Positions 10,169 to 25,176 of a stretch of 25,176 nt of DNA are shown in pieces. The notes under the pieces are model-generated. The model saw only the letters and a program-made list of their open reading frames with translations, had not been told where the DNA came from and did no database searches. Origin of the DNA: Anaerolineae bacterium (GTDB lineage: Bacteria; Chloroflexota; Anaerolineae; Aggregatilineales; Phototrophicaceae); contig JADLHH010000181.1 in assembly GCA_020848855.1 (NCBI GenBank), positions 1-25,176 of the forward strand, in the 5' to 3' direction. How positions within the stretch are numbered: the first letter of the stretch is position 1; each line of letters begins with the position of its first letter. Made by a program: the position numbers and the translations under genes.

Positions 10169-11182
10169 ATGAAGAAATATCTATTGTCTGCAGTGCTGCT
10201 GGTGTTGGTATTGAGCGTAGGCGTCGTGAGCGCGCAGGATGCGCCGTTCAAGGTGGCGATGGTCTTCCCCAGCACCATCACCGACCTGAGCTGGAGCCAG
10301 GCGATGTACGAAGCTTTCGTCTCGATTCAGGAAGAAATGGGCGGCGAAAGCGCGCTGGAAATCGCCTATACCGAGAACATGTTCGACGTGACCGCCGCCG
10401 AGCAGGCGCTGCGCGACTACGCCGACGATGGGTATAACCTGATCATCGCGCACGGCACGCAGTACGGCTCGCAGATGTTCAGCGTCGCGGCGGACTACCC
10501 AGAAACGTCGTTCGCATGGGGCACCGCGACTGACACCGGCGAAGAAGAAGGCTTGAGCAATGTCTTCGCGTACGAGGCAGCAGCCGAAGAAGGCGCTTAT
10601 GTCGAAGGCGTGATGGCGGCGATGATGAGCGAGACCGGCATCATCGGCATCATCGGACCGATTCCGGCGGGCGACGCACTGTTCTATGACAACGGCTTCA
10701 CCCAGGGCGTGCTGGCGACCAACCCGGACGCGCAGGTGCTGATCGCCTACACCGGCGGGTTCGGCATGACGACTGAAGCGACCGCGATTGCCCAGAGTCA
10801 GATCGCCGCCGGCGCGGACGTGCTGACCGGTTCTTCGCAGCAGGTCGTCGGCGCGATTGACGCCATCGCCAATGAAGGCGGCTACTGGTTCGCCACGCAG
10901 TGGGATCAGAGCGAGCAGTGGCCCGATACGGTCGTCGTCTCGCAGGTGTACGACTGGAAGCCGTCGCTGCAGGATATGATCGACAAGATCAAGTCGGGCA
11001 CGCTCGGCGGTACGGTCTACACCCTGACGCTGGAAAACGAGGGGCAGGTCTTCGTCTATGGGCAGGTCGAAATTCCTGAAGACGTGAAGGCAGCCGCCGA
11101 CGCCGCCATCGAGGGCATCATCAGTGGCGACATTGTCGTGCAGGCGGTGATGGAAGAAGCGACACCCGAAGCATCGTCGTAA
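10169..11182 (+). CDS. BMP-family (nucleoside-type) substrate-binding protein
   Basis: This is a 337-residue secreted binding protein. It has a clear signal peptide (MKKYLLSAVLLVLVLSVGVVSAQ, cleavage near residue 23-24) without a lipobox cysteine, so it looks like a signal-peptidase I substrate rather than a lipoprotein. The mature part follows the BMP/Med pattern: FKVAMVFPSTITDLSW at the start, NLIIAHGTQYGSQM, EEGAYVEGVMAAMMSETGIIGIIG and WFATQWDQSEQWPDTVVVSQVYDW. ATG 10169 has a perfect GGAGG 7 bases upstream. The frame runs open to 10007, but that part is non-coding repeat. The family binds nucleosides; autoinducer or sugar ligands are possible. The tail is EEATPEASS. Confidence 0.9.
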   Translation: MKKYLLSAVLLVLVLSVGVVSAQDAPFKVAMVFPSTITDLSWSQAMYEAFVSIQEEMGGESALEIAYTENMFDVTAAEQALRDYADDGYNLIIAHGTQYGSQMFSVAADYPETSFAWGTATDTGEEEGLSNVFAYEAAAEEGAYVEGVMAAMMSETGIIGIIGPIPAGDALFYDNGFTQGVLATNPDAQVLIAYTGGFGMTTEATAIAQSQIAAGADVLTGSSQQVVGAIDAIANEGGYWFATQWDQSEQWPDTVVVSQVYDWKPSLQDMIDKIKSGTLGGTVYTLTLENEGQVFVYGQVEIPEDVKAAADAAIEGIISGDIVVQAVMEEATPEASS

Positions 11183-11193
11183 TTGTGAATTTG

Positions 11194-11221
11194 GTAGGGG
11201 CACGATATATCGTGCCCCTAC
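11194..11221. repeat. GTAGGGG-type palindrome B (perfect, 28 bp)
   Basis: This is a perfect palindrome with 14-bp arms (GTAGGGGCACGATA and its complement) and no spacer. It starts 12 bases after the BMP stop and ends 12 bases before the ATPase start. It lies inside what should be one transcript, so it is more likely an mRNA-stabilising or attenuating structure than a strong terminator. Confidence 0.75.
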
Positions 11222-11233
11222 GGACGAGGTGTT

Positions 11234-12766
11234 ATGACAGCCACCCTTCCCTCCGGTCACAAGCGCATCGACTATATGGAGATGCGCCGCATCAGCAAGC
11301 GGTTTCCGGGCGTCCTCGCCAATGATAATGTCACGTTCGACACCAAAGCCGGCGAGATTCACGCGCTGCTGGGCGAAAACGGCGCGGGCAAATCCACGCT
11401 GATGAAAATTCTGTACGGCATGTATAAGCCAGACGCGGGCGAAATCCTGCTGGACGGCGAGCCGACCGTGTTTCATTCCCCGGCGGACGCGCTGACACGC
11501 AACATCGGCATGATCCACCAGCATTTCATGCTCGTGCAAACGCTGACGGTCGCCGAAAATATCGCGCTCGGCTTGAAGGCGGGCGGGCTGGTACTCGACC
11601 TTGACAGCGTGCGCGAGCGGCTGCTCAAGCTGGCGAGCGTCTACGGTCTGAAGGTCAACCCGGACGCCTACATCTGGCAGTTGTCGGTCGGCGAGCAGCA
11701 GCGCGTCGAGATCATCAAAGCGCTCTATCATGGCGGCGCGCTGGTGATCCTCGACGAGCCAACCGCCGTACTGACGCCGCAGGAATGCAGCGAGCTGTTC
11801 GTCACGCTCAAGGAGATGCGGGCGCAGGGGCACGCGCTGATCTTCATCTCGCACAAGCTCCACGAAGTACAGGAACTGAGCGACCGTGTCACCGTCATGC
11901 GCGACGGGCGCGTGATCGACACGACGCCGAACATCGACCTCGACCGGCGTAAGCTGGCGCGCATGATGGTCGGGCGCGACGTGGTGTTCCAGCCGGAACG
12001 TCCCGCTGTGACCGTCGGCGCGGTCAAACTGTCGGTACGCGACCTCAGGGCGGACAACGATCAGGATTTACCGGCGCTGCAAGGGGTCTCGCTCGACGTG
12101 CGCGCCGGCGAGATCGTCGGCTTGGCGGGCGTTTCGGGCAACGGGCAGCGCGAGCTTGCCGAAGCAATCGCCGGGCTGCGCCGTCCTACCAGCGGCGACG
12201 TTTCGATCAACGGACAGTCGGTGACGCATACCTCGGTCGCCGCCCGGCTGCGCGCCGGGCTATCCTACGTCCCCGAAGAACGCAATCGCGACGGCATCAT
12301 CGGCACGTTCTCGGTTGCCGAAAATGCCATCCTGCAAAACACGAGCCAATACGCGCACGGGCGCATCTTCTTCAACTTCGGCGACATCAACCGCCACGCC
12401 AGCGAGCTGGTGCGCCGTTACAACATCAAGACGCCCAGCACGCAGACGCCGACTAAAAATCTGTCCGGCGGCAACATGCAGAAGCTGATCCTCGCCCGCG
12501 AGCTATCACGCAAGCCCGCCGTGCTGATCGCGTCGCAGCCGACGCGCGGCGTGGACATCAGCGCGACCGAGTACATCCAGCACGTGCTGATCGAGCAGCG
12601 CAGCGCGGGAGTCGCCATCCTGTTGATTTCCGCAGATTTGGATGAGATTCTGGCGCTCTCCGACCGGATCGCCGTCATATACGAGGGAAAGATCGTCGGA
12701 ATCGTCGACCGCGCAGACGCCGATGTGGAAACGCTCGGAATGATGATGGCGGGCGTCCATGCCTGA
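11234..12766 (+). CDS. Nucleoside-type ABC importer ATP-binding protein, two NBDs (YufO/NupO-like)
   Basis: This is a 510-residue double nucleotide-binding-domain protein. The first domain has Walker A GENGAGKST (47-55), the signature LSVGEQQRVEI and Walker B LVILDEPTAVL. The second has a degenerate P-loop (GVSGNGQREL), signature LSGGNMQKLILAREL and IASQPTRGVDI. The degenerate second P-loop is normal for the RbsA/YufO/MglA class. It energises the permeases at 7915-10001. ATG 11234 has GAGGTG just upstream, immediately after palindrome B. The gene order permease-permease-BMP-ATPase differs from the Bacillus BMP-ATPase-permease-permease order. It converges with the phosphatase gene after a 29-base gap. 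Confidence 0.92.
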   Translation: MTATLPSGHKRIDYMEMRRISKRFPGVLANDNVTFDTKAGEIHALLGENGAGKSTLMKILYGMYKPDAGEILLDGEPTVFHSPADALTRNIGMIHQHFMLVQTLTVAENIALGLKAGGLVLDLDSVRERLLKLASVYGLKVNPDAYIWQLSVGEQQRVEIIKALYHGGALVILDEPTAVLTPQECSELFVTLKEMRAQGHALIFISHKLHEVQELSDRVTVMRDGRVIDTTPNIDLDRRKLARMMVGRDVVFQPERPAVTVGAVKLSVRDLRADNDQDLPALQGVSLDVRAGEIVGLAGVSGNGQRELAEAIAGLRRPTSGDVSINGQSVTHTSVAARLRAGLSYVPEERNRDGIIGTFSVAENAILQNTSQYAHGRIFFNFGDINRHASELVRRYNIKTPSTQTPTKNLSGGNMQKLILARELSRKPAVLIASQPTRGVDISATEYIQHVLIEQRSAGVAILLISADLDEILALSDRIAVIYEGKIVGIVDRADADVETLGMMMAGVHA

Positions 12767-22586: not shown

Positions 22587-23798
22587 TTAGCTGCTCGCCT
22601 CTTCGGCGGCGTACAGCGGCGACGGAATCTGAATCTGGGAGATGACGGTGTTGTTGCCCCACTCCGCCGGGTCAGCCGATGCGACTTCGAAAATGAAGAA
22701 GTTCGCCAGCTCGCGGTCACCATGATCATCGAACGTAATCATGCCGGTCAGACCGTCGTATTCGGTGGTCGCGCGGACTTCAGCCGCCACCGCTTCACGG
22801 GTGGGGATTTCGCCGCCAGCCGCTTCGACAGCGCGCTCGATCGCGGCGAGAATGATACCGGTCGAGTCGTAGGACTCCGCGCCGTAGGTCACCGGCGGCT
22901 CGCCGAACTTCTCGGTGTAGCTGTCAACGAACGCAGCCGAGTTCGGGAACGCCGAGACAGGACCACCTGCCGACGTATAATGCACGCCGACGACTGCCGT
23001 GCCAGCCAGTTCGGCGAAGTCGGGGGCGTCGAGACCATCGGGACCCAGGAATTCGCCGGTGTAGCCCGCTGCGTAAAGCTGGTTGACGAACACGCCAATC
23101 TGGTTGTAGATGCCGCCGAAGTAGACCACGTCCGGCGACAGCGCCAGGATCGGCTGGATGATGCCTTCAAAGTTCGAGGTTTCTTCCGTGCCTTCGAAGC
23201 CGAGGACGGTGATGCCCGCCGCCTCGATGTTGTCGCGGAAGAACGATGCAACGCCCAAGCCGTAGGCGGTGGTGTCGTTCAGAACGTAGGCGGTGGTGTA
23301 ACCGCGCTCGACAGCGAACTGCGCGCCCACTGCGCCCTGCGCGTCGTCACGACCGCACACGCGGTTGACGGTCGGCAGTTCGCGGTCCGTGATCAACACA
23401 TTGGTGTTGGCGGGCGAAACCATGACGAGGTTGTTCTGGTTGTAGACTTCCGACGACGGAATGGCGACACCACTGTTCAGGTGACCAACCACGCCGAGGA
23501 TCGCCGCATCGGCGACCATCTGCTGAGCGTTGGCAACGCCCACGTCCGGGGTCGCCTGATCGTCGAACGGCACGAACTGCAGGTCGAAGCCCATATCACG
23601 CAGCGACCCACCCAGTTCTTCAATCGCCAGCTCGGTCGCATTACGGATACCGATGCCCAACTGCGACTGACCGCCCGACAGCGGGCTTGCTGAAGCGATC
23701 TTGATGACCTTTGCCGCCTGCGCCTGAACCAGCGACGCGCCAAGTGTCATCACCAACACGAGCACAAGTACAATCATCGAAAGTCGTTTGCTATTCAT
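22587..23798 (-). CDS. livJ: Branched-chain amino acid-type substrate-binding protein LivJ
   Basis: This is a 403-residue periplasmic-binding-protein-like type 1 receptor. It has a signal peptide (MNSKRLSMIVLVLVLVMTLG..VQAQA, about 26-28 residues) with no lipobox cysteine. The mature part starts VIKIASASPLSGGQSQLG and continues with VPFDDQATPDVGVANAQQMVAD, VVGHLNSGVAIPSSEVYNQ, AYVLNDTTAYGLGVASFFRD and DVVYFGGIYNQIGVFVNQLYAAGY, all typical of LivJ/LivK. I chose ATG 23798 because GGAGAGG lies 6 bases upstream and the signal peptide begins there; the frame runs open to 23858. The ligand is probably a branched-chain or related amino acid. The C-terminus (AAEEASS) resembles that of the BMP protein. 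Confidence 0.92.
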   Translation of the reverse strand: MNSKRLSMIVLVLVLVMTLGASLVQAQAAKVIKIASASPLSGGQSQLGIGIRNATELAIEELGGSLRDMGFDLQFVPFDDQATPDVGVANAQQMVADAAILGVVGHLNSGVAIPSSEVYNQNNLVMVSPANTNVLITDRELPTVNRVCGRDDAQGAVGAQFAVERGYTTAYVLNDTTAYGLGVASFFRDNIEAAGITVLGFEGTEETSNFEGIIQPILALSPDVVYFGGIYNQIGVFVNQLYAAGYTGEFLGPDGLDAPDFAELAGTAVVGVHYTSAGGPVSAFPNSAAFVDSYTEKFGEPPVTYGAESYDSTGIILAAIERAVEAAGGEIPTREAVAAEVRATTEYDGLTGMITFDDHGDRELANFFIFEVASADPAEWGNNTVISQIQIPSPLYAAEEASS

Positions 23799-23850
23799 AC
23801 CAGCCTCTCCAATGTACATAACACACACTAAGTGTAACTTGCCGCCACCC

Positions 23851-23864
23851 TGACCCATTGGTCA
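23851..23864. promoter_or_regulatory. Palindrome in the livJ leader (candidate operator or hairpin)
   Basis: TGACC-CATT-GGTCA is perfectly symmetric in its 5-bp arms. It lies about 50 bases upstream of livJ and downstream of the predicted start of transcription. A second short palindrome, ACACT-A-AGTGT, is at 23825-23835. Either could bind a regulator or form an mRNA hairpin. Confidence 0.3.
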
Positions 23865-23911
23865 AGCCAACTGAACAGTCCGCTCCGGTTTTGGATAGAG
23901 GCAACAAACAC

Positions 23912-23939
23912 AGTATAACAAATCTTACAAAACTTACAA
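23912..23939 (-). promoter_or_regulatory. Predicted sigma-70 type promoter of the liv operon
   Basis: On the minus strand, TTGTAA (23939-23934) and TATACT (23917-23912) are separated by 16 bases, close to the -35/-10 consensus. The surrounding DNA is AT-rich, unlike the rest of the window. A leader of roughly 105 bases to livJ is implied. CTTACAA occurs twice here (23924-23930 and 23933-23939). Confidence 0.55.
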
Positions 23940-24040
23940 GATAATAGGGCTGTTTTAATATTTACACAAAATGATGTCCGACAAATTGGCGGCACTTCTG
24001 CACACGACTTCGCAATCCAGTCCAGAGCGCCCGCGCCCAC

Positions 24041-24210
24041 CCAATTACCCCAGGGCAAACGCATCAAAACCATCATTCGGGCTATAAAACATAAGGGTTT
24101 GTAGGGGTGCAGCGTGCTGCGCCCCTACGTTACGGTTGAACCCATATAAGTCGGTGTGAACTTCCTTGAAATCATGATCGAATTTGATGCGTTTACCCTG
24201 CCAATTACCC
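24041..24210. mobile_element. MITE-like element: 150 bp, 18-bp terminal inverted repeats, 10-bp target duplication
   Basis: The element is 24051-24200. Its left end CAGGGCAAACGCATCAAA (24051-24068) and right end TTTGATGCGTTTACCCTG (24183-24200) are inverted repeats matching at 17 of 18 positions. Immediately outside both ends is the same 10-mer, CCAATTACCC (24041-24050 and 24201-24210), as expected for a target-site duplication. It encodes no plausible protein, so it would need a transposase in trans. Ends starting CAGGG and a 10-bp duplication would suit an IS4-like DDE transposase, but that is a guess. It lies between the livJ and xylA promoters and contains palindrome F. Confidence 0.85.
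24101..24128. repeat. GTAGGGG-type palindrome F, inside the MITE-like element
   Basis: GTAGGGGTGCAGC and GCTGCGCCCCTAC are 13-base arms with one T/G wobble and a two-base centre. It sits near the middle of the 24051-24200 element. It has the same outer bases as palindromes A-E. Confidence 0.7.
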
Positions 24211-24241
24211 ACAAACCAGCGGCAAAATGCCCGATTCGCGG

Positions 24242-24247
24242 TATAGT
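24242..24247 (+). promoter_or_regulatory. Possible -10 element of the xylA promoter
   Basis: TATAGT lies 39 bases upstream of the xylA start codon. No convincing -35 hexamer is present at 16-18 bases upstream, so an activator may be needed. The right end of the MITE-like element is about 42 bases upstream of this site. A ribosome site AAAGGA lies about 10 bases before the ATG. Confidence 0.35.
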
Positions 24248-24285
24248 ATTTCCTACTTACTAAAACCGAAGAAAGGATTTGAAGC

Positions 24286-25176
24286 ATGGCGGATTACAGC
24301 CCAAAACCTGAAGACCGCTTTACCTTTGGTTTATGGACGGTCGGGAACATCGGTCGTGACCCGTTCGGCGGACCCGTCCGCAGCCCGATTTCACCGGTCG
24401 ATATCGTGCATCTGCTGGCGGAAGTCGGCGCGTATGGCGTGAACTACCATGACAACGACCTGATCCCGATTGACGCCACGCCTGCCGAAGCCGACAGCAT
24501 CTTTCAGACCTTCAAGCAAGCGCTCGCAGAGACCGGCATCAAAGTCCCGATGGCAACCACCAACCTGTTCACGGACCCGGCGTTCAAGGACGGCGCGTTC
24601 ACGTCCAACGATCCCAAAGTACGCGCCTATGCCATGCAGAAAGTCTTGCGCTGCATCGACCAGGGGGTGGAACTCGGCGCGGAAGTGTTCGTGTTCTGGG
24701 GTGGGCGCGAAGGCGTCGAGACCGATGCCAGCAAGAAAGCCTCCGACAGCCTGAAGCGGATGCGCGACGCGATCAACTTCTTCTGCGACTACGTCACCAG
24801 CCAGAAGTACAACCTCAAGCTGGCGCTGGAACCCAAGCCCAACGAGCCGCGCGGCGATCTTTACCTGCCGACGGTCGGCGCGATGCTCGGCTTCATCGCC
24901 ACGCTCGATCACCCGGAGATGGTGGGCGTCAACCCGGAAGTTGCCCACGAGCACATGGCGGGGCTGAACTTCATGCACGCCGTCGCGCAGGCATGGGACG
25001 CCGGCAAGCTGTTCCACATCGACCTGAACGACCAGATGTTTGGGCGCTACGACCAGGACTTCCGCTTCGGCTCGGCGATGCTGAAGCAGAATTTCTTCCT
25101 CGTCAAGTTCCTCGAAGACGTGGGCTACAACGGCAGTCGGCACTTCGACGCCCACGCCTATCGCACCGAAGATTAC
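24286..25176 (+). CDS. xylA: Xylose isomerase, actinobacterial (class I) type, 5' part
   Basis: The first 297 residues are present and the window ends inside the gene (the usual length is about 385-395). The protein matches the short class I xylose isomerases of the Streptomyces/Actinoplanes type: [21 protein letters not shown] at residues 8-28, then HDNDLIP (His55 and Asp58, catalytic), [65 protein letters not shown] and HFD. All divalent-metal ligands expected from the Streptomyces enzyme are in place, the last being Asp288. It interconverts D-xylose and D-xylulose (and glucose/fructose) in the cytoplasm. ATG 24286 follows AAAGGA. Neighbouring xylose genes, if any, lie to the right. Confidence 0.95.

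Follow-up and report, generated by a model that had tools for sequence, protein, structure and literature searches.

Insertion sequences of the ISAs1 family are described as having ends of 14–22 bp that start with CAGGG and as producing 10-bp target duplications (PMC11946415), and ISArsp11 is a published example (PMC6305408). Bacterial MITEs are described as small, multicopy and well folded, with inverted repeats like those of intact elements and a target duplication (PMC4133298), and GTAG-tagged REP palindromes have been reported from Chloroflexi (PMC3733652). In the 25,176-nucleotide stretch of DNA analysed here (the window), the element at 24051..24200 resembles each of these in part. As in the ISAs1 family, its ends belong to the 14–22 bp class starting with CAGGG and are accompanied by a 10-bp duplication; unlike the complete members of that family in related genomes, which measure 1191–1245 bp, it is 150 bp long and lacks a transposase gene. 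With the bacterial MITEs as described in that source, it shares the small size, multiple copies in relatives, inverted repeats that resemble an intact element's, the target duplication and a good fold, but it is visible as a single copy in this window. Its core starts with GTAG and recurs dispersed in related genomes, as do the palindromes reported from Chloroflexi, whereas here the core is enclosed by ISAs1-type ends inside a target duplication. The element is an ISAs1-type MITE, a known kind, and its family is large in related genomes and has been mobile there. A literature search, covering few subscription titles, returned no description of an ISAs1-derived MITE in Chloroflexota. The analysis assigns a previously unnamed repeat to an identified family of insertion sequences and shows that, in a Chloroflexota group known here mainly from draft metagenome assemblies, MITEs of the ISAs1 type are abundant and have moved.

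Sequence comparison defined the architecture of the element, which as a whole has no assigned strand. The left terminal inverted repeat, CAGGGCAAACGCATCAAA (24051..24068, + strand), has an end of the ISAs1 kind and agrees with the right one, CAGGGTAAACGCATCAAA (24183..24200, read on the − strand), at 17 of 18 positions, position 6 being the sole difference. The left target duplication, CCAATTACCC (24041..24050), recurs letter for letter on the right (24201..24210), both copies being strandless. The preliminary description had given a length of 150 bp, inverted repeats of 18 bp matching at 17 positions and an identical 10-mer on each side, all of which proved exact. The inverted repeats were scored by comparing the first 18 bases with the reverse complement of the last 18. 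By this measure, the runner-up in the window (an inverted repeat flanked by exact 10-bp direct repeats) reached 11/18, and the best score in 200 first-order Markov sequences of window length was 13/18, attained by six of them. Since the simulations peak at 13/18, ends matching at 17/18 together with an exact 10-bp duplication exceed chance. ISAs1-like ends were found within the window only at 24051 and 24186–24200. Treated as single-stranded DNA, the 150-bp element had a fold z of −5.2, which none of 200 shuffles equalled, and an Rfam search of 23800–24400 gave nothing up to E = 1. No transposase gene and no listed open reading frame of ≥120 aa lies inside the element. It thus combines the marks of a MITE (short, without a transposase gene, and with terminal inverted repeats at 17/18 inside a target duplication at 10/10) with both the end class and the duplication length of ISAs1 derivatives; because no ISAs1 transposase is encoded in the 150 bp, it was filed as a non-autonomous relative and not as an insertion sequence.

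Related copies were sought with the end pattern CAGGGNNANYGCATCAAA in 98 genomes of the family of G005, using the reversed pattern as control. The pattern was present in 52 of the 98 genomes and its reversal in none, the maximum being 169 ends (89 + 80) in G472; copies of the ends in relatives, for which the preliminary description had proposed to search, were therefore found. A shorter 15-base end occurred in 61 of the 396 genomes of the class (reversed control, 3/396), and the longer pattern was adopted because many single 15-base matches look like coding sequence. Among 20 genomes picked for many ends or pairs, six contained end pairs spanning 136–166 bp. The nearest full-length relatives (L287, L374 and L375 in G431, and L431 in G429) are 153 bp long and share 110 identical positions (72%) with the window's element. 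Copies of 153 bp with the duplications AGCATATCAG and CAATTAATAC were found in G376, together with a third copy, L199, that has unlike flanks on either side. For L199 and L203 of this genome, the right flank of one copy equals the 10 bases to the left of another, a pattern that resembles recombination between copies, or misassembly. Whole-element DNA searches, one of which scored no more than eight candidates per genome, gave matches dominated by the core palindrome. G354, which has 13 ends, was considered as a MITE genome and rejected: two complete ISAs1 elements account for four of these ends, and four further ends lie about 110 bases from a contig start and are perhaps broken copies. Scanning of viral contigs with the end pattern yielded at least 120 stretches, two of which (L037 and L039) were inspected; by our judgement, the stretches mostly read like single matches within genes. 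On one of these contigs (L039:1-75), an ISAs1-like end stands beside repeated partial copies of its own first bases (GGTTTACCCTG repeats).

To describe the target duplications, 90 distinct paired elements, the window's included, were assembled non-randomly from loci hand-picked from listings with a preference for pairs; the set includes doubtful pairs (e.g. of 60 and 417 bp) and interrelated elements, so that the counts are not independent, and 89 of 260 ends were partnerless. An exact duplication of 9–11 bp flanked 44 of the 90 pairs, the window's among them (10 bp in 33, 9 bp in nine and 11 bp in two), one pair had 6 bp and 45 had none, while 4445 trials that paired the flanks of different elements produced 10 bp in two and 5 bp in four. 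Past mobility was further addressed through empty sites, for which 16 joined flank pairs were prepared; nine of these, from elements of G428 and G425, were searched against 20 genomes, scoring at most 17 candidates per genome. For the L392 element of G428, G425 has a cleanly empty site with a single target copy, and the alignment, of 160 identities and 17 mismatches, has its two gap columns at a distance from the junction. The L303 site is empty apart from six additional bases; at the L396 and L382 sites, the element is missing from flanks that have diverged around the junction; and at the place of the L313 insertion of G428, the corresponding region of G425 (L474, G425:C174:5000-5450) has about 90 bp of other DNA and no MITE. 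For L309, L393, L395 and L383, no junction-crossing match was present among the matches listed. The search for empty sites advocated in the preliminary description thus succeeded for the L392 element; the insertion in the window itself yielded no such site. With ends in 52 of 98 relatives, duplications at 44 of 90 pairs and one empty site, the original reading of a non-autonomous transposable element is upheld. Its further proposal of a recent insertion agrees with the perfect duplication, although the insertion cannot be dated.

A possible autonomous partner was recognised in the relatives. In G339, an end of this kind is located at the stop codon of an open frame of 374 aa, which matches the ISAs1-family transposase (NF033564, 7e-126; also PF13808 and PF01609). 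The nearest ends in relatives were those of a 1245-bp ISAs1 element in G354, which has ends agreeing at 18/18 (CAGGGCAATCGCATCAAA) and a 10-bp duplication (AATCTGTGCC), and which matches the window's ends at 17/18 and 16/18. Complete ISAs1 elements with an exact 10-bp duplication were found at four of 17 transposase loci (in G354, G376, G425 and G407; 1191–1245 bp); seven of the remaining loci had no end pair, and the others were weak (two weak only), cut or without the full duplication. No complete ISAs1 element at the 17 loci had the same ends as the window's element. The ends and 10-bp duplications resemble those of complete ISAs1 elements, and the family that had been left unnamed is ISAs1. 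Of the 20 chosen genomes, seven had an ISAs1 match, which exceeded the cut-off in five.

Because transposases and complete ISAs1 elements occur in relatives and the published ISAs1 features agree with the element, mobilisation in trans by an ISAs1 transposase is the best mechanism, and we infer that the feature is very probably a MITE moved by an ISAs1-family DDE transposase. Under this mechanism, the cell's transposase would recognise the 18-bp ends and cut there, and would then join the element to a staggered target, the repair of which would give rise to the 10-bp duplication. The ISAs1-like ends, the intact 10-bp duplication, the relatives of the same build and the empty site of one relative all support this explanation, and the 45 of 90 pairs without an exact duplication count against it, as do the scarcity of ISAs1 matches in the 20 chosen genomes and the failure of the 17 transposase loci to yield ends identical to the window's. 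Differing from it only on present mobility, the element could be a relic, namely a MITE of ISAs1 origin that lost its host transposase and is now immobile, which we regard as a serious possibility though short of an even chance. ISAs1 matches are absent from the drafts of G463, G464 and G472, where ends are most numerous, and 18 of the 98 family genomes have one at E ≤ 1e-30, which speaks for a relic; against this stand the perfect 10-bp duplication and the ends at 17/18. The absence of ISAs1 from the drafts is itself weak evidence, because draft assemblies often lose insertion sequences. It is improbable that a different transposase family, also making 10-bp duplications, moved the element and that its ends resemble those of ISAs1 by convergence: such a reading would accommodate the lack of an ISAs1 element with identical ends in the MITE-bearing relatives examined, but the agreement of a complete ISAs1 element at 17/18 and 16/18 and the equal duplication length speak against it.

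Pattern search of the window placed a 28-bp GTAG palindrome, GTAGGGGTGCAGCGTGCTGCGCCCCTAC, in the core of the element (24101..24128, no strand). A second one, GTAGGGGCACGATATATCGTGCCCCTAC, is perfect and stands alone at 11194..11221 (no strand), between an ORF ending at 11182 and an ORF starting at 11234, with no ISAs1-like ends nearby; shuffled sequences yielded no such palindrome. The window's palindrome class was found in 12 of the 98 genomes, with a maximum of 30 copies in G442. Counts of a looser GTAG pattern, with those of its control in brackets, were 123 (5) in G376, 30 (5) in G441, 13 (12) in G431, 12 (8) in G429, 5 (9) in G425, 5 (10) in G428, 4 (1) in G454, 4 (5) in G427 and 1 (1) in G456. 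Inside the elements, GTAGG[GA] or its complement occurred in 49 of 90, compared with 10.2 upon base shuffling, the elements being related and the count therefore not independent. Given these palindromes, the element might instead be a REP/REPIN-like unit that a RAYT moved through the GTAG palindrome, with the outer repeats incidental. Only the core at 24101–24128 has the GTAG palindrome of REP/REPIN units, such palindromes are dispersed in 12 of the 98 genomes, and RAYT-like genes exist in the group (in two other genomes, both below the curated cut-off). However, the 10-bp duplication borders the ISAs1-like ends on their outer side and does not adjoin the palindrome, and a GTAGG[GA] core, present in 25 of the 44 elements with a duplication, is lacking in the other 19, which makes this reading very unlikely.

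Apart from the mechanism of movement of the window's element, the origin of the cores was considered. A tentative and rather doubtful proposal is that, in these Chloroflexota, ISAs1-type MITEs repeatedly capture GTAG palindromes of the host for use as a core. A single element would then serve two unrelated transposases as substrate, a DDE enzyme through its ends and an HUH/RAYT enzyme through its core, and the MITEs of each genome would spread its palindrome type. In G431, one 28-mer is present seven times: three copies lie inside elements with recognised ends (L287, L374 and L375), two (L461 and L462) are flanked by sequence like the MITE interior, and two are without such ends or clear likeness (L463, and L439, which shares a few flanking bases). 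Against capture, the looser GTAG count does not exceed its control in G425, G428, G427 and G456 and is barely above it in G431 and G429, and the GTAGG[GA] core is missing from 41 of the 90 elements. If the GTAG cores were host-captured, they would represent a natural case of REP-like palindromes being spread by a second, unrelated transposase. As to the RAYT-like genes, the family matches were at L226:1156-1794 (G030) and L217:1192-1797 (G434), with 56.6 and 61.4 bits against a cut-off of 80, and each of these frames holds an in-frame GTAG palindrome that leaves the reading frame unbroken.

On one side of the element lies a livJ-like gene for a branched-chain amino acid binding protein (22587..23858, − strand; NF011933, 176.8 bits, below the cut-off of 477); on the other, a gene for xylose isomerase of the xylA_Arthro type (24286..25176, + strand; TIGR02631, 480.6 bits, over the cut-off of 447) is cut by the window end. 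The closest xylA match has 86% identity (G423). The preliminary description had placed the element between the livJ and xylA promoters; its position between the two genes holds, and the promoters are not established, a scan of the livJ–xylA region having predicted a single weak promoter-like site (23939–23912, − strand) where shuffles average 0.7. Inside the 150-bp element, the scan predicted no promoter-like or terminator-like sites, and the proposed alteration of xylA control is therefore unproven. Downstream of the element, TATAGT at about 24242–24247 is, on a by-eye reading, a possible −10 box of xylA. Any influence of the element on its two neighbours, xylA and livJ, is probably slight or absent.

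Orthologous loci were compared by examining 318–1000 bp upstream of xylA at each of 30 loci, drawn from the 58 of 98 genomes with a xylA match. Neither an ISAs1-like end nor a GTAG palindrome was present upstream in any of the 30, and thus the element's 170 bp is not conserved intergenic DNA. The strong fold and the location between two genes might suggest plain intergenic DNA, such as a structured xylA regulatory region, but this reading is scarcely credible in view of the chance test (simulations at most 13/18), the copies in 52 of 98 genomes, the lack of an Rfam match up to E = 1 or a terminator-like site, and the 30 orthologues. Within ≤1500 bp per locus, livJ lay near xylA at just one of the 30 loci, L249, where a further gene separates the two, and the set therefore does not provide strict empty sites. 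A search with the livJ protein gave relatives at 13 loci, with best segments of 57–60% identity; seven of these loci are titled Anaerolineae, Anaerolinea, Chloroflexi or Chloroflexota, and the remainder bear other names, which makes an anaerolinean Chloroflexota the probable host. One locus, L005 (JAHHHY010000001.1), is titled as the cyanobacterium Pleurocapsa minor, yet its livJ region resembles Chloroflexi, and its genome is grouped in one family with an Anaerolineae assembly, so the name may reflect a binning or labelling error.
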